In this document: piece by piece, positions 807 to 26,697 of the stretch
Numbering within the stretch: position 1 is the stretch's first letter
Layout of the letters: the number at the start of each line of letters is the position of its first letter
DNA from: Myxococcales bacterium
Lineage (GTDB): Bacteria > Myxococcota_A > Bradymonadia > REDH01
Length of the DNA: 46,998 bases
Direction of reading: 5' to 3'
Assembly (NCBI GenBank): GCA_947496715.1
Contig: CANMDT010000011.1
Coordinates: 1 to 46,998, forward strand
Position numbers and translations under genes: made by a program
The notes under the pieces: model-generated
The model's database searches: none
Told to the model about the DNA's origin: nothing
What the model saw: only the letters and a program-made list of their open reading frames with translations

Positions 807-2784
807 GTCTCTCCATGCGATATTGCGCGGCCAGTTCGTTGCCGTTCGTAGCAGGCTCCGCGGCGGCGAACAGCGGTTCGCTTCGGCCCTAGCATTGGCG
901 CCCTCACTGCTTGCTCCACAGGGCGCATCGGCACCGGCCACCGCTGTGGCCATTCCCATCGACTACCAGCCCCTCGACTGGTCGACTGTGGCGAGCCCCG
1001 GACGCTTCTTCGAGCGCCAGGCGCTGGGGTGGGATACCCACTCGCCCGTCGACGCTGTCAGAGAACTATGGCGCGCGTTGGAGAGCTTCGCTGGGATCCT
1101 CTTTGGCCACTCTCTGGCATCTGCTGCCATGGGGGCAACGCTCGTCGCGCTGCTGCTCCTGCTCTTCGCGACCCTCGCGCTCGTCGACCGACGGCTCGTT
1201 CGCACCGCCGGCTACGGACATGTCGCGCTCCCCTTCGCCGAACAGTTCGCAACGCTGGCCGTTCCCTGCGGGGTCGCGGTCACGCTGACGCTATCGCAGC
1301 ATCTCCTTGGTCCCTCCTCGCTGGCGCGCACCTTCGCCATGCTTGCCCTCCTGTTCGCCGGAGCGCGGTTGCTTCGGGTGCCCGTCTCGCTGCTCTCCTC
1401 GATTGATTGCGCAGCGGGTGTTGTCCCGCCGTCCTCTCGGCTTCGCCGACACCTGCTCTATCCTGGGCGTGTCATCCTCGGCCTTTCGGCACTCATCGTC
1501 ATCACGCAGGCGATCGCTGTTGCCCCTGCAGTCGTCGACCTCTTCACACTTGTTCGCAACGTAGCGTTGATGCTTGCAGTCCTCGCACTTCTGCCGGTCC
1601 GTGCAGAGCTCATGGCGCTCTTTCCTGCGACGGGCAACCCGCGATACGTTGCGGTTCGTGCCTTTGTCAGCCGTATGCTCGCCGTGTTGTTGGTGTCGTC
1701 GCTGGTACTGCTGCTGCTCTGGAATCTAGGCTTCCGCAGAGCCGCCGAGACACTGCTGCTGCGCAGCTATGCTGTGCTTGCCGTAGTTCTCGCGGGTGCA
1801 CTCGCCTCGCGCTGGCTTGGCGACAAGGAGGAAGGAAGAACCGGGCCGCGCCACCCCGTCCTCAAGGTGCTGGTGGGGCCGGTAGACTGGGTGCTCCGGC
1901 TGGTGGTCTACGGGGTGCTCGGATGGGCGCTGCTTGCCACACTCGGCCTCTGGTCACCGCTGACGGCGATCTTGGCGCAACCCTTCCTCTGGGTGGGCTC
2001 GGGCGGCATCTCGTTGCTCGGCCTTTCGAAGGGGGCCGCGGTACTGGTCATTGCGGCCTATGTCTCACGAACGGTGCGCGCTGCGATGGATCTCTGGTGG
2101 TTCGGTGCGCTCGACGTCCCCGCAGCGACGCAGGGCGCCGCAAGCACGGGCGCTCATTACCTCACGATGCTCATCGCCGGTGCGGGCGCGCTCACGCTGT
2201 CGGGGATCGACCTGCGGGGGCTCGCCGTCTTCGCTGGAGCGGCCGGCCTCGGTATCGGACTCGGTCTGCGCGAAGTGGCGGCGCAGACCATCAGCGGCAT
2301 GACGCTGCTCTTCGGCGGAACGCTTGGCCGAGGCGACAGCGTGACGCTGCCGAGCGGCGAGTTTGGACGGGTGATGGAGATTGGGCTTCGCCGAACGCTG
2401 TTCGAGACTCCGGACGGCAGGGAGATCTCGGTGCCGAGCAGCGACCTTGTGAATGGTCAGATTGTGGTTTGGACGCGCAAGTCACGCTTCGTTCGGGTGC
2501 GAACCGAGGTCACCCTGCCGGTAGGCAGCGACCTTGAGCGGACTCGAGCAGCATTGGAGGGCGCGGCCGCCGCAGTTCAGAGCCGCGAGACGACTCAGCC
2601 GACCAAGGTGTGGCTGCGTAGCGCCGGGCCGACCGGGCTGGTCTGGGAGGCAATGTCATGGGTGGACATCGCGGGCACGACGCCCGACGAGGCCTCCGCG
2701 ACGCTGCTTCGCGCCTGCCTGACGGCCCTCGCAGAGGCGAAGTTGGAGCTAGCGCGCCCCACCCTGTCGGTCACGCAGGGCTAA
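796..2784 (+). CDS. Mechanosensitive ion channel, MscS family, with extended multi-TM N-terminus
   Basis: ORF 658..2784. C-terminal GLGIGLGLREVAAQTISGMTLLFGGTLGRGDSVTLPSGEFGRVMEIGLRRTLFETPDGREISVPSSDLVNGQIVVW is an MscS pore and beta domain. Start at 796 or 805 is uncertain. Confidence 0.85.
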   Translation: MLDMSLHAILRGQFVAVRSRLRGGEQRFASALALAPSLLAPQGASAPATAVAIPIDYQPLDWSTVASPGRFFERQALGWDTHSPVDAVRELWRALESFAGILFGHSLASAAMGATLVALLLLLFATLALVDRRLVRTAGYGHVALPFAEQFATLAVPCGVAVTLTLSQHLLGPSSLARTFAMLALLFAGARLLRVPVSLLSSIDCAAGVVPPSSRLRRHLLYPGRVILGLSALIVITQAIAVAPAVVDLFTLVRNVALMLAVLALLPVRAELMALFPATGNPRYVAVRAFVSRMLAVLLVSSLVLLLLWNLGFRRAAETLLLRSYAVLAVVLAGALASRWLGDKEEGRTGPRHPVLKVLVGPVDWVLRLVVYGVLGWALLATLGLWSPLTAILAQPFLWVGSGGISLLGLSKGAAVLVIAAYVSRTVRAAMDLWWFGALDVPAATQGAASTGAHYLTMLIAGAGALTLSGIDLRGLAVFAGAAGLGIGLGLREVAAQTISGMTLLFGGTLGRGDSVTLPSGEFGRVMEIGLRRTLFETPDGREISVPSSDLVNGQIVVWTRKSRFVRVRTEVTLPVGSDLERTRAALEGAAAAVQSRETTQPTKVWLRSAGPTGLVWEAMSWVDIAGTTPDEASATLLRACLTALAEAKLELARPTLSVTQG

Positions 2785-2809
2785 GGACTTTGGGGTACTA
2801 GCAAGGCGC

Positions 2810-4018
2810 CTACTTGCCGCGGAAGATGATCTCGACGCGGTTGTTCTTTTCGCGATCCGCAGCCTGCTGGCCCTGATACCGGGGCTTTGACTCGCCGAAG
2901 GCCTGGATAGTGAGGCGGCCGGTCGAAATTGCGCGCTGCAGGAAGTAGTCCTGTACCGAGCTGGCGCGGGCCTGACTCAGTGACTGATTGGATGAATCAG
3001 TGCCGCGGTCGTCGGTGTGGCCCTCGATGACGATGGAGTGGTTCTTGAACTGCTTGGCGATCTCGATGACCTTGTCGAGGAGGGTGCGCCCGCTGTTGGA
3101 GATGCCGGAAGAGCGGCCATCGAAGATGCCCGACGTGACGACGACGATGCCGCGGGCGTCGATGAAGGCGTTGCGCACGCCGAACTCCTTCTGAGCGCGC
3201 TCGTAGATGGCCTGCGATTCGGTGTTCCGGAGGAGTTTGTCTTGCTCCTCGGTCCACTGGGCGCGGGAGACATCACTTGCGTTTTTGAAGGCCTCCTGAG
3301 CCTGCAGCGCCATCTGATAGGCGTCGTCAAACTTCTCGTCGTTGTAGAGGGTTTCGGCCCGCGCGAGGAGGTTCTGTGCCTCGTTGAACTTGGGGCCGGC
3401 AAAGTCAGGAGCTTTGAGGCCTTCGGCCTCTGTCTTCTTGATGCGCGCCTCTTGGAGCGCGTAGATGGAGCGCGACTCGCTCTTGGCCCTCTCTTCGAAG
3501 GAATCCAGCGAGCGGCGGAGCTCCTCGTTGCGCTTGAACAGGGTCTGGATGGTCTCGAGCAGGGTTACCAGTTCCTGCTCGCCCTGGAGCCTCTTCTGGT
3601 AGTCATTCCGGCGGGAGAGCTGCTCCTGGTAGCGCTGGTTGGCCTGATTAAGGCGCACTCGAGCGTCTGCGGAGCGGGCGTAGTTTTCGGCTGCTCGGTA
3701 GTACATGAGCGCGATCTTAGCGCGGGCATCTGTGTTGGCCGGGTCTCGCTCATCGAACGACTCCAGCGAGAGTTCGTAGTAGGCGTCGCTGAGCTTCACG
3801 AGCTCGTTGGCCGACTGGCGCAGGCGCTTGAGGTTCGGTTCGGGCTCGTCGGCGGCTGGCTTCCGAATCTCTGCGGAGTACTCGCGGGCGCGCAGGGTCT
3901 CGAGTTCGGCAAGGTCCCCCGTCTTCGGTCGAGGGCCGCCGCAGGCGACGATGGCCAACGAGAAAGCGAGCGGGAGTGCGATGCGGGAGAGGCTGTTGCG
4001 GTGTGTCATGTGGTTCAT
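2810..4018 (-). CDS. OmpA-family outer membrane lipoprotein with long helical/TPR-like N-terminal region
   Basis: Lipobox-like LAIVACGG; C-terminal VIEGHTDDRGTDSSNQSLSQARASSVQDYFL...NNRVEIIF is a peptidoglycan-binding OmpA domain. Confidence 0.88.
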   Translation of the reverse strand: MNHMTHRNSLSRIALPLAFSLAIVACGGPRPKTGDLAELETLRAREYSAEIRKPAADEPEPNLKRLRQSANELVKLSDAYYELSLESFDERDPANTDARAKIALMYYRAAENYARSADARVRLNQANQRYQEQLSRRNDYQKRLQGEQELVTLLETIQTLFKRNEELRRSLDSFEERAKSESRSIYALQEARIKKTEAEGLKAPDFAGPKFNEAQNLLARAETLYNDEKFDDAYQMALQAQEAFKNASDVSRAQWTEEQDKLLRNTESQAIYERAQKEFGVRNAFIDARGIVVVTSGIFDGRSSGISNSGRTLLDKVIEIAKQFKNHSIVIEGHTDDRGTDSSNQSLSQARASSVQDYFLQRAISTGRLTIQAFGESKPRYQGQQAADREKNNRVEIIFRGK

Positions 4019-4538: not shown

Positions 4539-5039
4539 TCAGAGTTTCCAGCTGACGGGCGCCGACGGCGTTCGGCACTCACGTTCGCTGCAGATGCTGA
4601 GGCGGAGAGTGGCATCGACAATGCCGGAACCTTCCGAGGGCACGACGACCTCGTAACGGGCGCGATCTGCGCCGAGCTCCTTTGCCTCGGACTTCACGAA
4701 CTTCTTGCCGGCGAGGAAAGGCGAGGTGGCAGCAATCGTGAGGGCCCAGGGGAACTCCTGGTTGATGTGGAAGCCGGGCTCGGGGGTGACCTCTGCGACG
4801 AGATGGCGGCCATCGGGGCCTGCTTCGACGCGGGCGACCAGCTTGAAGCCGGTGTCAGCCTGCGCGGGTGCAGCAGCGGGAGCCGGGGCGGGCACCAGAG
4901 CCGGCGCTGCGGCAGGAGCGACAGCTTGTGGCTGAGGGGTCGCTACCGCCGGCTCGAGGTTGGTTGCACTCGACGAGCCGCATGCTGCGAACGTCAGTAT
5001 GAGGATTCCGGAGAGGTATACGCGGGGTCGGGTTGGCAT
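4539..5039 (-). CDS. Hypothetical lipoprotein with Ala/Pro-rich linker
   Basis: Lipobox LTFAACGS, PAAAPALVPAPAPAAAPA linker, globular C-terminus. Same strand and context as the two downstream genes. Confidence 0.65.
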   Translation of the reverse strand: MPTRPRVYLSGILILTFAACGSSSATNLEPAVATPQPQAVAPAAAPALVPAPAPAAAPAQADTGFKLVARVEAGPDGRHLVAEVTPEPGFHINQEFPWALTIAATSPFLAGKKFVKSEAKELGADRARYEVVVPSEGSGIVDATLRLSICSERECRTPSAPVSWKL

Positions 5040-17890: not shown

Positions 17891-18594
17891 CCCAGCTTCC
17901 ACTTGAGGCGGAGGACCTGGACGAGCGCCTCTCTGGCAATCTCGGCCGACATCTTCGACACACCCGCAACGCGATCGGGGAAGACGATGGGGATCTCCAC
18001 GAGCCGGAGGCCGGCCCGGTGGACGCGGTACTTCAGCTCAATCTGGAAGCAGTAGCCGGTGGAGAAGACCTCGCCGAGCTGGATCTGCTCAAGCGCCTCG
18101 CGGCGGTAGCAGACGAAGCCGGCTGTCAGGTCTTGGATGGGGAGTCCGAGGATGGTGCGCGCATAGAGGCCGCCTCCACGCGAGATGAGCCGGCGCGAGA
18201 GTCCCCAGTCGACCGTCCCGCCGCCTTCCACATAGCGGGAGCCGATGACCATGTCGGCGTTCTCCGAAGCATCGATCATGGGCTGCAGATACTTGGGGTC
18301 GTGGCTGAAGTCGGCGTCCATCTCGAAGATGCGCTGGTAGTCCCGCTCGAGGGCGAAGGCGAAGCCGGCCAGGTAGGCGGTGCCGAGGCCAAGTTTGCCG
18401 GAGCGGCGGAGGAGGTGGATGCGGGGGTCGGCCTTGCATCGGGCCTCGACGAGGTCGCCGGTTCCGTCGGGCGAACCGTCATCGACGACGAGGATCTCAA
18501 CATCGGGCACCGCCGCCTGAACCTCCGTCAGTATGCGCTCGATGTTCTCCCGCTCATTGTAGGTTGGGATGATGATGAGCGTCTTGGGATTCAT
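17887..18594 (-). CDS. Polyprenol-phosphate mannosyltransferase-like GT2 (Dpm1 type)
   Basis: MNPKTLIIIPTYNERENIERILTEV, VDDGSPDGTGDLV, FEMDADFSHDPKYL. Start ATG overlaps the asnB stop (ATGA). Confidence 0.9.
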   Translation of the reverse strand: MNPKTLIIIPTYNERENIERILTEVQAAVPDVEILVVDDGSPDGTGDLVEARCKADPRIHLLRRSGKLGLGTAYLAGFAFALERDYQRIFEMDADFSHDPKYLQPMIDASENADMVIGSRYVEGGGTVDWGLSRRLISRGGGLYARTILGLPIQDLTAGFVCYRREALEQIQLGEVFSTGYCFQIELKYRVHRAGLRLVEIPIVFPDRVAGVSKMSAEIAREALVQVLRLKWKLG

Positions 18595-20519
18595 GCCATT
18601 GCCTCCGTGCCGGGCGCGGAGACTGTCACACCCCACCGCTGCCGCCAAGCCTCAAACATCATGAGGGTCCAGAGCTGTTTACGGTGGTCGAATGTACCAG
18701 CCTCGTGTTCGGCCATGAGTCGCTCCACGACCATTGGATCAAAAACACCCGCGGAAGCCAGTCGGTCGTGGCTGAGTAGGTCGCGCATCTGCCCTCGGAG
18801 CGGCCCCTTGAGCCAGGCGGCGACAGGCATTCCGAAGCCCTTCTTCTTCCGCGCCGTGACCACCGGCGGCAGCATGGGGCCGACAGCCTGTTTCAGCACC
18901 CACTTGGCCTTCAATCCCCTGCCCATCTTGAGGTGGGAGGGCATGCGCGCGACGAGCTTCAGCATCTCGGGGTCGAGAAAGGCGGAGCGGGCCTCGAGGC
19001 CTGCCGCCATGCTCGCCCGGTCCACCTTGGTGAGAATGTCCTCGGCAAGGTAGGTTCGGATGTAGGCGTTTGAGAGCCGTTGGCGGTGGTCTCGCCCCTG
19101 CGGCGCATCGTAGTGGACCCCCATGATGGCGAAGATCTCGTCGGCGTTGAGCAGCCGGCGTCGGTCGCGCGCGAGCGGCTGCGGGCCGGCGTCGGGCAGG
19201 AAGGAGCTGAGCCAGCGCACGTGGCGCTCGACGCCCGGCGAACCTGCGCCGCGCAAGAAGGACTTGGCGACAAAGTCCAGGCTGAAGTTCCCTGTGCTGA
19301 CCGGCATGGCGCGCACCAGCCGCTCGGTGAGTCGTTGGAGCGGCTTCGGGAGCCTAGCATAGGGAGCTGCAACTTCATCGGCGCGGAAGGTCTCGTAGCC
19401 CAGAAAAAGTTCGTCGCCGCCATCGCCGCCAAGGGCGACCTTGACATGCTCGCGGGTGAACTTGGAGAGCAGGTGGGTGGGGAGCAGGCTGGCGTCACCG
19501 AAGGGCTCGTCCATGTGGCCCATCATGGCCGGAACGAGGTCGAGGAGATCCGACGTACCGAACCGGCGCACATGGTGGGTTGTACCGAGCGCCTCCGCGA
19601 CCGCCGATGCATACTGCGACTCGTCAAACGAGGGATCGTCAAAGGCAATGGAGAAGGTCTGGAGCGCGCCGCGGGGCATGTCGGCGCTCAGGAGCGCGGC
19701 GATGGCGGAAGAGTCTACGCCGCCCGAGAGGAAGACCCCGATCGGCACATCGGCCATGGTCCTCGCCCGCACCGACGCGAGCAGCACCTGCTTGGTCTGC
19801 AGGATCCATTCATCGTCGGTCAGATCAAGCTGCTCCGACTGGCAGAAATCGCTCTCGCAGAAGGGCTCGATGGTCAACCGACCGGCCTCCCAAACCAGCG
19901 CGGTGCCGGGCTCCAGTTTTTGCACGCCCTCCACCGCGGCGTGGGGCCAAGGAACATACTCGTAGGTCAGATACAGCTCGAGCGCCGCCTGCGAAATGCG
20001 GCGTGTGCAGCCTGGATGCGCCATGAGCGCGCGGAGCTCGCTCCCGAACCAGAGCGAACCATCGGGCAGGTGCATGTAGTAGAGCGGCTTCTCGCCAAAA
20101 CGGTCGCGTGCAAGCCGGCCGCGTCGATGAGCGGGGTCCCACACCGCGTAGGCAAACATGCCGTTGAGCTTGGCCGGCAGGCCCGCTCCCCAGGCATGAG
20201 CGCCATGCACGAGCACCTCGGTGTCGGAGGAGGTTTCGAACCGGTAACCCCGCTGCTCGAGCTCCACCCGAAGGGCCATGTGGTTGTAGATTTCGCCGTT
20301 GAAGCAGACCGTTGTCCTGTGTGTCGCTGCCCGCATGGGCTGCGCTCCGCCTTCGAGGTCTACGATGGCGAGCCTGCGGTGGCCGAAGGCAAATCCCTCT
20401 CCGAGCAGCAGCCCTTCACCGTCCGGCCCTCGGTGGGCCAGCGAGTCCGTCATGCGGCGAAGCACCGCCTCGTCGTGGGCGGAGGGAGCGACGAAGAAGC
20501 CGCCGGCGATGCCGCACAC
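18591..20519 (-). CDS. asnB: Asparagine synthase (glutamine-hydrolysing)
   Basis: MCGIAGGF N-terminal Cys glutaminase; CFNGEIYNH; IGVFLSGGVDSSAIAA PP-loop; LGGDGGDELFLGY. Confidence 0.93.
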   Translation of the reverse strand: MCGIAGGFFVAPSAHDEAVLRRMTDSLAHRGPDGEGLLLGEGFAFGHRRLAIVDLEGGAQPMRAATHRTTVCFNGEIYNHMALRVELEQRGYRFETSSDTEVLVHGAHAWGAGLPAKLNGMFAYAVWDPAHRRGRLARDRFGEKPLYYMHLPDGSLWFGSELRALMAHPGCTRRISQAALELYLTYEYVPWPHAAVEGVQKLEPGTALVWEAGRLTIEPFCESDFCQSEQLDLTDDEWILQTKQVLLASVRARTMADVPIGVFLSGGVDSSAIAALLSADMPRGALQTFSIAFDDPSFDESQYASAVAEALGTTHHVRRFGTSDLLDLVPAMMGHMDEPFGDASLLPTHLLSKFTREHVKVALGGDGGDELFLGYETFRADEVAAPYARLPKPLQRLTERLVRAMPVSTGNFSLDFVAKSFLRGAGSPGVERHVRWLSSFLPDAGPQPLARDRRRLLNADEIFAIMGVHYDAPQGRDHRQRLSNAYIRTYLAEDILTKVDRASMAAGLEARSAFLDPEMLKLVARMPSHLKMGRGLKAKWVLKQAVGPMLPPVVTARKKKGFGMPVAAWLKGPLRGQMRDLLSHDRLASAGVFDPMVVERLMAEHEAGTFDHRKQLWTLMMFEAWRQRWGVTVSAPGTEAMA

Positions 20520-21493: not shown

Positions 21494-21556
21494 GGGAACG
21501 ATCTTTCGCGAGGGAACGCCGACGGCAGGTAGGCGGCGTAACAGAGGCTAACCCGT

Positions 21557-21661
21557 TGTTCAACTTGACCTAGCGGCGAGAGGAGAGGCGGAGACAATGC
21601 TGTTCATTACCTATTCGAAGTGTTGACATGGAGGTGAAAACTGTTCATTAACTGTCCATCA
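21557..21661. promoter_or_regulatory. Candidate CarH/LitR-type operator: TGTTCA-like boxes between divergent transcription units
   Basis: TGTTCA at 21557, 21601 and 21642, TGTCCA at 21653. ACTGTTCATTA (21640-21650) and ACTGTCCATCA (21651-21661) are abutting 11-bp direct repeats with 9/11 identity. TTGACA at 21623-21628 is a possible -35. Confidence 0.5.
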
Positions 21662-21683
21662 CTTTCCCAACTCGGGTGTTGCC

Positions 21684-22241
21684 ATGACCGACATTGAACT
21701 CCTCCAAGCCCTCCGCCGCCGTGACCCGAACGCAGCTCGCGCCCTCTATGATGGCTACCGAGACCGCGTCTTTGCTGTGACTGTGCGCATCCTTCGGGAT
21801 GAGTGGGACGCCGAAGAGGCGACCAACGATGCCCTGTTCACTGTGGTGAACAAGATCGACCTCTTTCACGAGCAATGTGCTCTGTGGAGTTGGATTTACC
21901 GAGTGGCTGAGAACTGCGCGAGGATGAAGCTGCGGACATTCAAGCGCCGCCCGATTCTCGTAGAGAGCGACACGCTAAGCGCGATGATGGCGCCGGCCGC
22001 GATGGAGAACAGGTCGGATCGCCCCGACGACCAGCTCCGCGAGAGGCGTTGCATCGAGGCCTACGCAGCAGGCCTGATGGAGATTGAGGAGACCAACCGC
22101 AGCCTCTACGTGGCGATGGATCTCGACGGCCGCTCCAAGGAGGAGGTGGCCGCAGAGCTTTCGCTCACGATTCCAGCACTCAAGGCCCGCCTGCACCGCG
22201 TCCGTGAGGGCCTCAAGGCGCGGATGCTCGCGGCAGCCTGA
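21684..22241 (+). CDS. ECF-type RNA polymerase sigma factor
   Basis: RRRDPNAARALYDGYRDRVFAVTVRILRDEWDAEEATNDALFTVVNKI is sigma region 2; KEEVAAELSLTIPALKARLHRVREGLKARM is region 4 HTH. Confidence 0.85.
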   Translation: MTDIELLQALRRRDPNAARALYDGYRDRVFAVTVRILRDEWDAEEATNDALFTVVNKIDLFHEQCALWSWIYRVAENCARMKLRTFKRRPILVESDTLSAMMAPAAMENRSDRPDDQLRERRCIEAYAAGLMEIEETNRSLYVAMDLDGRSKEEVAAELSLTIPALKARLHRVREGLKARMLAAA

Positions 22242-22249
22242 GGCAGCTC

Positions 22250-23185
22250 ATGCTCACGCCTCTCCTCAGCATCGGCGCAGTCTCAAAGGCCTGCGACGTC
22301 CCGGTTGAGACGCTCCGGACCTGGGAGCGCCGTTATGGCTTCCCCGTCGCCACGCGTACTCCTGGCGGGCAGCGTATCTACCAACCTGCGACCGTGGAGC
22401 TCCTGCTGCAGGCGAAGCGGTCCATCGACTCAGGTCTCCGTCCGGCGCAGGCCTTCGAGCGCATCATCGCAGGGAGGGAGGCGGCAGAGCCGCAGGAGGG
22501 AATCAGGCCGCTGCCTACCGTGGTTTGCGACGCTCCACCCTGCACCGAGTCCGACGCAGAGACCGATGCGTTGGTCTCGCGCTGGCTCCGCGCGGCGACC
22601 CTCTTCGACTCGGCGACCCTGGCGCATGGCTTCGCAGCGGAATGGCGCAAGCTCGGTCTCTTCGACTTTCTGGAGCGGCGCATTCATCCCTTCATCGTCG
22701 CCATCGGCGAGGCCTGGATGCGTGATGAACTCAGCATCCCGCACGAACACTTTGCTTCGGACCGAATCATCGACTTTCTCGGTACGATTTGGCGTCCGCT
22801 CTCTGATGCCTCGACGGGTCCCGTGCTGGTTGGTGCCACCATGCCCATGGAGCAGCACGCGGTGGGCCTTCACATGGCTGCCGTGACGGCTGCCGCCGCG
22901 GGCTGTAGAATTGCCTACCTCGGGCTCGATACGCCCGTGGTCGAGATTGCGAAGGCCGCTCGTCAGGCTGAGGCTTCGGTCTTCATCAGCGTCTCGGTGA
23001 CGACGCCGCGCCCACTCGTGCTGGAGCAGGTGCGGGAGCTTCGCCGCCACCTCACTTCGCGAAACCAACTCGCCATCGGCGGCGGCGGCGCGAGGTTGGA
23101 CATCGAAGGGGTGGCCCTGCCCCAGAGTTTCCGCGCCTTCTTTCTCTGGTGCGAGTCACAACCTCTGCCGCGCCCCGTTCGCTAG
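22250..23185 (+). CDS. MerR-HTH / B12-binding regulator, CarH/LitR-like putative light sensor
   Basis: MerR HTH SIGAVSKACDVPVETLRTWERRYGFPVATRTPGGQRIY; W-x9-EH (WMRDELSIPHEH); ExHxxG (EQHAVG); B12 fold SVSVTTP and IGGGG. Confidence 0.88.
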   Translation: MLTPLLSIGAVSKACDVPVETLRTWERRYGFPVATRTPGGQRIYQPATVELLLQAKRSIDSGLRPAQAFERIIAGREAAEPQEGIRPLPTVVCDAPPCTESDAETDALVSRWLRAATLFDSATLAHGFAAEWRKLGLFDFLERRIHPFIVAIGEAWMRDELSIPHEHFASDRIIDFLGTIWRPLSDASTGPVLVGATMPMEQHAVGLHMAAVTAAAAGCRIAYLGLDTPVVEIAKAARQAEASVFISVSVTTPRPLVLEQVRELRRHLTSRNQLAIGGGGARLDIEGVALPQSFRAFFLWCESQPLPRPVR

Positions 23186-24535: not shown

Positions 24536-25702
24536 CTACTTTGGGTAGTTGAGCGTTGTCCAACCCGTGCCAGCCACAGCCGAGACGGCACCACCGATGC
24601 GGAGGGTGGCCTCGTACCGGTTGGAGATTTCGTAATCCATCGGAGCAAGCGCGCTCGCGAGAACGGCGCGGAGCATAGGGCTAAGGGTTGCTAGCGGGTT
24701 CTCGCGGAGTTCGAGGTGTCCGTCAGTGACGGTCAGTTCAACCTCGTCGGTACCGCTCCGCGCCTGCACACGATAGCCGAAGAGGACCGGATAATTCGAT
24801 GCTTCGATGGCCTGGTTGCGGACATCGACGGGCTTCAGCACAAGGTCGCGCGATGCAAAGAGGAGTTCATCTCCGAGGCTGACGGTGAGCCAGCCCACGG
24901 TGGCGTGGCCATAGGTGTCGGGGGTCAGGAGGTGGTTCATCGTGATGGTCAGGCCATCATCTCGGAGGGCACGAAAGCCGGTCCAACGCTCGCCGATGGA
25001 GGAGGGGAAGGATGATGTACGGCGATGCTCTGCATACCCCCGCCCGGTGACGGCCTGCCACTGCTCGGGGTCCTTCTTGCTCTGCCGTGTACTGAGGCGC
25101 CCAGTGACCGAAAAGCGGGGGATGATGTGCTCGGTCAGGGTCGTGTCGCCATCCCAGCCAAAGCGGGTGACGCCATCGCCAGCCTGCCAGAGCGGCCGGT
25201 CCAGCGTGAGGTCGAGTTCGGTCTTCACGCGGCCGGCCAGGAGCGCGAGATGGAAGGTTCGGCCATCGCCGCGCAGATAGCAGTCGTCAAAGACGAGGTT
25301 GAAAGCGTCGTCACTGGAGTTCCACTCGCCATCCTGCCCTGAGAAGCCGCGGCCGGCCCGAAACACCCCGTCTTTGGTGTCGTCGGTGGTGGTCTGACCG
25401 ATGGGGGCGACCACCACCTTCAGGCTACCCTGGCGCGCAATCTTGAAGAAGCCGGCTCGCATCGAGGTAACGACGAACTGCAGCTTCATGTATCGGCCGT
25501 CGTCGAGCCAGACCCAGAAGTCGTATGACTCGAAGGAGGTGCCCTCGCCACCCCATGGCGCGAGGTCGGTGGCAACGAGCGGCTCGGAGCCGGCTTCTAC
25601 CCATCCCCGGACGGGCTCCGCTTCGGCGTTGCCACGGTCGGGCATCAGCGCGGCGACGCAGAGGAGGAGGAGCGAGATGGCTGCACGAAGCGAGACAATC
25701 AT
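24536..25702 (-). CDS. Secreted hypothetical protein (lipocalin/CrtC-like beta fold possible)
   Basis: MIVSLRAAISLLLLCVAALMPDRGNAEA signal peptide; rich in W/aromatic beta segments. Start overlaps the upstream stop (ATGA at 25702-25699). Confidence 0.65.
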   Translation of the reverse strand: MIVSLRAAISLLLLCVAALMPDRGNAEAEPVRGWVEAGSEPLVATDLAPWGGEGTSFESYDFWVWLDDGRYMKLQFVVTSMRAGFFKIARQGSLKVVVAPIGQTTTDDTKDGVFRAGRGFSGQDGEWNSSDDAFNLVFDDCYLRGDGRTFHLALLAGRVKTELDLTLDRPLWQAGDGVTRFGWDGDTTLTEHIIPRFSVTGRLSTRQSKKDPEQWQAVTGRGYAEHRRTSSFPSSIGERWTGFRALRDDGLTITMNHLLTPDTYGHATVGWLTVSLGDELLFASRDLVLKPVDVRNQAIEASNYPVLFGYRVQARSGTDEVELTVTDGHLELRENPLATLSPMLRAVLASALAPMDYEISNRYEATLRIGGAVSAVAGTGWTTLNYPK

Positions 25703-26697
25703 GGCGGCCCTGCTGGGGGAGTCGGGTTCTGAGCTGGTCGACCAGCCTGCGCGCTGATGGCGGTGACGGCCCTGATGTGAACCGCCTGCGCGGCGCGGTT
25801 GGTCTCGTCGAGATCGAGCGCCTGATCGGCGAGCTCTTTGCAGCGCTCGAAGTCTGCGCTGCGGCAAGCTTCGCCTGCGCGGTCCACGAGCATTCGGACC
25901 TGTTCCTCGGTCGGAGGCTGAGGCGCAGCGGAGGCTGGAGCGACCGATGGCTCCGCGGGCGCGAGACCGGGCGCGCGGCCGGCTGGCGGAGCGAGGGCCG
26001 GCGCGAGAGCACGATGCATCCGCTGGTAGACTGCGAATCCTAGGCCTGCGACGAACAGCAGGGTCAGCGCTATCACGACGGCGCGAGCCGATGGCCGCCT
26101 CGGCGCCGAGTTCGCCCTTCTCGCGCCACGCCACGCACCTCCGACGGGAGGACCGTTCAACCCTGCTGCCTCGTTCATGAGATCGAGCGCAACTTCGTTG
26201 GCCGATGCAGCGCCTGCGTTCGGTGCCCGCCGTCCTCGGCCGTCTACGCCGCCCTCGCGGTGTGCCGATGGTGAGGCTGCTGCGTCACTCAACCGCAACG
26301 GCGGCGGCTCAGCCGGCTGCCAGCCATCGGCCTCGGGCAGGCGACCCGACGCGAGGCGGTCGGGCAGGCGCGAAGGCGCAACAGCAACCTTGGCATCGAA
26401 GGCACCGAGCACCCTGCCCCACCCCTCTCCGGCAGCCGGCGTCGCGCTGCGCGGGTCAGGCGCCGCGGCTTCGCGCACGACCGCGAGCAGGCCAAAGGCC
26501 GCAAGCTGTTCGACAATGCGAGAGACTTCGCCCCGATCGTCGCTGCGGAGCACCTCCACCTCACCGCGCTGTAGCTCGATGGCGAGCTGCGTCCTGCTGC
26601 GGCCAGTGATCTCGCTCAGCCGCGCGGGCAGCACAACGGCCTCATCTCCCGGACGAGGGGTCACAACGACGACGAGTTGGACAGATTGCGACGACAT
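25699..26697 (-). CDS. Hypothetical membrane protein with cytoplasmic N-terminus, one TM and a helical/TPR-like C-terminus
   Basis: TM segment SARAVVIALTLLFVAGLGFAVYQ followed by Ala/Pro linker and repeat-like helices. Confidence 0.6.
   Translation of the reverse strand: MSSQSVQLVVVVTPRPGDEAVVLPARLSEITGRSRTQLAIELQRGEVEVLRSDDRGEVSRIVEQLAAFGLLAVVREAAAPDPRSATPAAGEGWGRVLGAFDAKVAVAPSRLPDRLASGRLPEADGWQPAEPPPLRLSDAAASPSAHREGGVDGRGRRAPNAGAASANEVALDLMNEAAGLNGPPVGGAWRGARRANSAPRRPSARAVVIALTLLFVAGLGFAVYQRMHRALAPALAPPAGRAPGLAPAEPSVAPASAAPQPPTEEQVRMLVDRAGEACRSADFERCKELADQALDLDETNRAAQAVHIRAVTAISAQAGRPAQNPTPPAGPP

Follow-up and report, generated by a model that had tools for sequence, protein, structure and literature searches.

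The sigma-carH gene pair

The stretch of DNA analysed here (hereafter the window) is 46,998 nucleotides long and comprises a whole contig (C11 of genome G000) of a 3.56-Mb genome, which is distributed over 244 contigs and 93% complete. The organism would belong, according to our placement, to the class that holds Bradymonadales, as a freshwater relative of the predatory Bradymonas. Two sets were used for comparison: a genus set of four genomes, consisting of this one and three sister genomes, and a class set of 57 genomes. The window contains two open reading frames on the forward strand, an ECF sigma factor gene and, 8 nt downstream of it, a gene for a MerR-type protein with a B12-binding domain, exactly as the preliminary description of this DNA had reported them. 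The coordinates of the two genes and of the associated elements are collected in Table 1. Each of the four genus genomes has retained both genes as well as both photosensing motifs of the second one. A search of the literature available to us found no description of this pair in Bradymonadales.

Table 1. Genes, protein motifs and upstream elements of the sigma-carH locus (window coordinates).
Feature	Position	Strand	Basis
Conserved block GGCGTAACAGAGGCTAACC[CT]GTTGTTCAACTTG with an extra TGTTCA at 21557-21562	21535..21568		One variable base in four genomes
Candidate operator pair 1, TGTTCA-N5-TATTCG, 11-bp register	21601..21617	+	Footprint over four genomes; repeats
Putative sigma-70-like promoter of the sigma-carH operon, TTGACA-17-CATTAA	21623..21651	+	Inferred from four-genome footprint
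Candidate operator pair 2, TGTTCA-N5-TGTCCA, 11-bp tandem repeat over the -10 region	21642..21658	+	Conserved in four genomes; one of two genome matches; TGTTCA enrichment
ECF sigma factor, 185 aa	21684..22241	+	Sigma70_r2 above cut-off; sigma70-ECF superfamily above cut-off; 92-97% identity in three sister genomes
CarH/class I LitR-type MerR repressor with B12-binding domain, 311 aa	22250..23185	+	MerR and B12-binding Pfam domains; best PDB match TtCarH, E = 4e-24
RTWERRY DNA-recognition helix motif (RxWERRY), residues 23-29	22316..22336	+	Sequence; motif per PMC9304148
W-x9-EH motif, caps the adenosyl group; residue after W is Met157, in the place of TtCarH His132	22715..22750	+	TtCarH alignment; conserved in relatives
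ExHxxG motif, E201-Q-H203-A-V-G206	22850..22867	+	His203 aligned with TtCarH His177

The sigma factor is built of sigma-70 regions 2 and 4 only; region 2 was recognised by Pfam (Sigma70_r2, 2.7e-8), and region 4 gave a sub-threshold match (20.8 of 25.7 bits). The Pfam scan of the neighbouring genes found no anti-sigma domain, in agreement with the preliminary description, which had seen no anti-sigma gene. Since the sigma factor has no anti-sigma partner in the operon, control over it is probably exerted at the level of its synthesis.

Judged from the window alone, the adjacency of the two genes could be accidental, with no functional link between them. This is highly improbable in the light of the class comparison: all 13 sigma homologues found at E<1e-35 stand beside a carH gene, in ten genera of three families, and the flanking genes change from genome to genome while the adjacency stays. 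Moreover, the pair has one upstream region, which carries a conserved candidate operator. The next sigma match after this set, in the genome G054, lies within a carotenoid (crt) gene cluster, 0.8 kb from crtB.

Identity of the MerR-type protein

The product of the second gene gave Pfam matches to the MerR (7e-10) and B12-binding (9.5e-9) domains. When it was compared with the PDB by phmmer, it matched CarH/LitR of Thermus thermophilus (TtCarH), and the W, EH, ExH and G residues were aligned column by column: W156, E166-H167, E201-x-H203 and G206 pair with W131, E141-H142, E175-x-H177 and G180 of TtCarH, respectively (equivalent residue numbers were derived by hand from this alignment). The stretch from W156 to E166-H167 reads WMRDELSIPHEH. 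The preliminary description had placed the two photosensing motifs at exactly the nucleotides where they were found, and had named as a refutation that these residues fall outside the CarH positions; the alignment puts all of them on the TtCarH positions. His203 is expected to be the lower axial ligand of the cobalt.

The B12-binding motif of myxobacterial CarH proteins was described as E/DxHx2G/P - x41 - SxT/V - x22-27 - GG (PMC9304148). Here it is complete, with E201QHAVG206, 42 residues, S249VT251, 25 residues and GG277-278; the first spacer is longer by one residue according to a hand count. Among about 30 relatives in the class W-x9-EH and ExHxxG are nearly always retained. The NCBIfam CarH model, whose cut-off of 400 bits defines one narrow equivalog and not the wider CarH/LitR family, gave 111.8 bits, and none of the 57 class genomes has a protein above this cut-off. 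An AlphaFold model was also constructed from an alignment of the four genus sequences (pLDDT 54, pTM 0.38). Foldseek ranked TtCarH first for it (E = 2.5e-11), and this was rejected as structural proof, as the TM-scores were about 0.25 and the ranking also uses sequence. Judged by its motifs and by the candidate operator described below, we class the protein with CarH (class I LitR), as a putative AdoCbl-based photoreceptor and repressor.

Departures from TtCarH and the response to light

Three positions differ from TtCarH: Met157 stands in the place of the light-state ligand His132, Gln202 in the place of Arg176 (dimer salt bridge) and Asp186 in the place of Gly160 (tetramer interface), while Asp227 (D201) and Gly218 (G192) are retained. 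Because of these three substitutions the oligomer and the photochemistry may differ from those of TtCarH. The residue following the Trp varies in the family, and the upper-axial His is a feature of many members, not of all of them.

It has to be considered whether the protein might be a dark sensor of the B12 level or photochemically inert, so that the operon would answer to B12 or to some other signal instead of light. The Met at the His132 position is compatible with this, as is the behaviour of the H132A variant of TtCarH, which is still largely tetrameric in light (PMC10442372). On the other hand, W-x9-EH is kept here, whereas CarA, a light-independent paralogue, has lost the Trp of this motif (PMC9304148), and CtMerR of Chloracidobacterium thermophilum, which has Arg at the His132 position and no upper His ligand, nevertheless passes from tetramer to monomer in light (PMC11796333). 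The upper-axial His does not define the CarH family (PMC11796333). An operon that does not answer to light seems to us unlikely; since CtMerR dissociates in light without the upper His, even though TtCarH H132A largely does not, a response to light is likely for the present protein. Natural CarH proteins lacking the His132 ligand bear on the question whether the light response needs bis-His ligation. A gene for a PduO-type cobalamin adenosyltransferase is present in the genome.

The operon promoter and the candidate operator

The intergenic region upstream of the sigma gene (190 bp) was footprinted in the four genomes of the genus, and TGTTCA-N5-TATTCG, TTGACA and TGTTCA-N5-TGTCCA were found conserved. 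On the opposite strand TGTTCA reads TGAACA, in accord with the CarH half-site TnnACA (PMC9304148); the CarH operator consists of 11-bp direct repeats, nAnnTnnACAn (PMC8156234). The -10 sequence is CATTAA in the window and CATAAC, CAATAC and CATAAG in the sister genomes; a scan with the sigma-70 consensus does not score the promoter of the operon in the window, as its -10 element is weak. The conserved block farther upstream stands between the pair and a divergently oriented glycosyltransferase gene, for which it may be the promoter.

In the upstream regions of the 13 sigma-carH operons 25 copies of TGTTCA were counted, where dinucleotide shuffles predict 0.74; four of these operons come from one genus, and they do not count as 13 independent cases. 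Just 14 of 243 other upstream regions have TGTTCA. The commonest spacing between copies in the sigma-carH promoters is 11 bp, a preference which is much stronger in promoters of carH genes without the sigma gene (14 pairs). With at most one mismatch, TGTTCA-N5-TGTTCA has two matches in the genome of the window; one of them is at the sigma-carH promoter, and this is the sole such site common to all four genomes of the genus. A three-repeat operator, TGTNNA-N5-TGTNNA-N5-TGTNNA, was also tried and discarded, having zero matches in the four genomes; the sites are pairs. The simplest reading of this distribution would be that the CarH operator is specific to the sigma operon and that the crt genes are reached via the sigma factor.

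In sigma-less members of the class (L040, L042, L044, L046-L050, L052) carH and a GST-like gene are oriented away from each other, frequently with a fatty-acid desaturase gene as a neighbour, and tandem TGTTCA repeats lie between carH and the GST-like gene. In the genome G032 a perfect TGTTCA pair precedes a lycopene cyclase gene.

Carotenoid genes and the candidate sigma promoter

The preliminary description had seen no carotenoid genes near the pair. This holds for the window, barring a reverse-strand gene at 24536-26134, two genes away from carH and conserved in the genus, whose product gave a sub-threshold match to the CrtC N-terminal lipocalin domain (E = 8e-4, 20.5 of 22.5 bits); a crt cluster is, however, present elsewhere in the genome. 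It lies on another contig (C147) and contains crtB (205 bits), crtI (585 bits), a crtE-like polyprenyl synthase gene (the Pfam match was made on the orthologue in the sister genome G003) and a lycopene cyclase gene, together with a gene for a CrtC-like protein that was recognised by eye only.

Throughout the class a gene of the phytoene/squalene-synthase family was found in 23 of the 25 genomes with this CarH subfamily and in 14 of the 32 without it (Fisher p = 2e-4, uncorrected for kinship). The genome G004, a member of the same taxonomic family, has neither. In some relatives there is physical linkage: crt, lycopene cyclase or photolyase-related genes adjoin the pair or the sigma gene at L041, L037, L138 and G027, and at L041 the neighbour is a full lycopene cyclase-desaturase-crtI-crtB run. 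A further family (c4), which may represent an unrecognised carotenoid-linked protein, is encoded immediately downstream of carH and turns up again in crt clusters; its members are roughly 250 aa long with signal-peptide-like N-termini and have no Pfam match (L039:10130-10879; L037, L038, L041, L044, L046, L049, L053, L090, L138, L145, L150, L153).

The preliminary description had proposed a scan for a sigma motif upstream of crt genes; a candidate is present there. In the genus, GCAACT-N14-GCATC lies about 50 bp before the start of crtE, whose promoter occupies 4742-4840 (minus strand) of contig C147 in the genome of the window. Other genomes with the sigma factor have GYAACY-N14/15-GCATC ahead of crtI or of the lycopene cyclase gene. 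Within the 220 bp preceding the crt lead genes, a site deviating at no more than one position is present in 10 of 12 sigma-bearing genomes and in none of 13 sigma-less ones (Mann-Whitney p = 4e-4; Fisher 2e-5); these figures are to be read with the reservations that the motif was spotted by eye in the sigma-bearing set, that three of the 12 genomes represent one genus and that the site in G048 overlaps the called start. Genome-wide the motif was not enriched over a reversed-pattern control. The genome of the window has ten perfect matches, and only that at crtE is intergenic at a normal promoter distance: seven of the other nine are inside genes, one overlaps a called start and the last stops 4 nt short of the start codon of an EF-P-like gene. 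We regard GCAACT-N14-GCATC as a candidate site of the sigma factor.

Other possible targets of the sigma factor

CarH might sense light and B12 and control the sigma gene, while the sigma factor serves mainly other genes, for example those for envelope glycan or photolyase, and crt is regulated independently. The genome-wide result for the motif leaves some room for such an arrangement. Additionally, the pair lies among glycan genes across the genus, and a photolyase-related gene is near it in two relatives (L037, G027); a photolyase-related gene of PF04244 was not found in the genome of the window and is present in the three sister genomes. Nevertheless, we hold this arrangement to be unlikely: the motif at the crt promoters separates sigma-bearing from sigma-less genomes, the sigma homologue of G054 is situated within a crt cluster, and the glycan neighbours do not accompany the pair in other families. 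The preliminary description had left two options for the targets, the adjacent glycan genes or distant ones. Distant targets are favoured; the adjacent genes are not favoured as the regulon because the pair has other neighbours outside the family, and they are probably bystanders. One gene inside the glycan region (18591-20519, reverse strand) codes for a protein of the asparagine-synthase type with a likeness to the amidotransferase of the XrtA/PEP-CTERM system (551 of 816.9 bits).

A proposed light-operated relay

The light- and B12-gated sigma cascade put forward in the preliminary description is supported by the candidate operator, the class-wide pairing, the crt cluster, the adenosyltransferase gene and the crt motif that tracks the sigma factor. 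We propose that the pair forms a relay resembling LitR/LitS, in which light would release CarH, and the sigma factor made in consequence would activate crt; we assign to this reading a probability of about 0.8. In the dark AdoCbl-bound CarH would oligomerise on the 11-bp tandem TGTTCA repeats (21601-21658) and thereby block its own sigma-70-type operon promoter. Light would cleave the Co-C bond and CarH would leave the DNA, so that both the ECF sigma factor and further CarH could be made. The sigma factor would then direct RNA polymerase to the crtE-crtI-crtB promoter through its GCAACT-N14-GCATC element, and possibly also to other photoprotection genes. The sequence itself shows the gene pair, the motifs, the operator-like repeats with their conservation, the crt cluster and the adenosyltransferase gene; we infer that the protein binds AdoCbl, answers to light and represses, and likewise which promoters are read by the sigma factor.

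In Streptomyces coelicolor light derepresses litS, and sigma-LitS transcribes crt (PMC12705666, PMC5401885). There too an AdoCbl-dependent class I LitR adjoins an ECF sigma gene; the present pair differs in that it comes from another phylum, that the sigma gene is the first in a shared operon and that a CarH-type operator on the sigma gene was derived here. The likeness in working that we suggest is one of anatomy. TtCarH has the same domain order, W-x9-EH, ExHxxG, RxWERRY and an 11-bp direct-repeat operator, although its output goes through a CRP-type activator, unlike the ECF sigma factor here. In Myxococcus xanthus TnnACA repeats for CarH overlie a TTGACA promoter (PMC9304148) and an ECF sigma factor also participates in carotenogenesis; in contrast to the present arrangement, CarH represses crt directly, and CarQ acts in a B12-independent branch with the anti-sigma factor CarR, whereas here the ECF gene is in the CarH operon. 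CtMerR, a natural photoreceptor with AdoCbl, likewise has no upper His ligand (PMC11796333; the text consulted mentions no sigma partner for it); it is more distant (E = 1e-7) and has a divergent DNA-binding domain.

If our model is true, the relay from light through a B12 photoreceptor and a sigma factor to carotenoids is extended beyond Streptomyces, and reaches largely uncultured freshwater and predatory bacteria near the myxobacteria, where CarH acts on crt directly. The model is testable, since the operator sites and a candidate sigma promoter can be named and a cultured host probably exists, namely Persicimonas caeni, which seems to have the same pair.

More tentatively, and with slightly less than even odds in our estimation, the class may hold two wirings: CarH acting on its own promoter region (perhaps on crt directly) in some genera, and a sigma relay with sigma sites at crt in others. 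The CarH proteins of the relay would lack the bis-His ligand and a part of the oligomer contacts of TtCarH, and the family of the window would have a split operator, in which two tandem pairs of 11-bp register, spaced by 41-42 bp, stand on either side of the -35 box. Such a situation would be a natural experiment in which a light input gained an amplifying sigma stage.

CarH paralogues whose photosensing motif is damaged (EQF, ERF) or missing were also observed beside the sigma gene, at L045:331-1416 and 2392-3363 (-) and at L053:9096-10169 (-). At L053 the damaged paralogue adjoins an intact copy; these paralogues recall the carA-carH tandem of Myxococcus.
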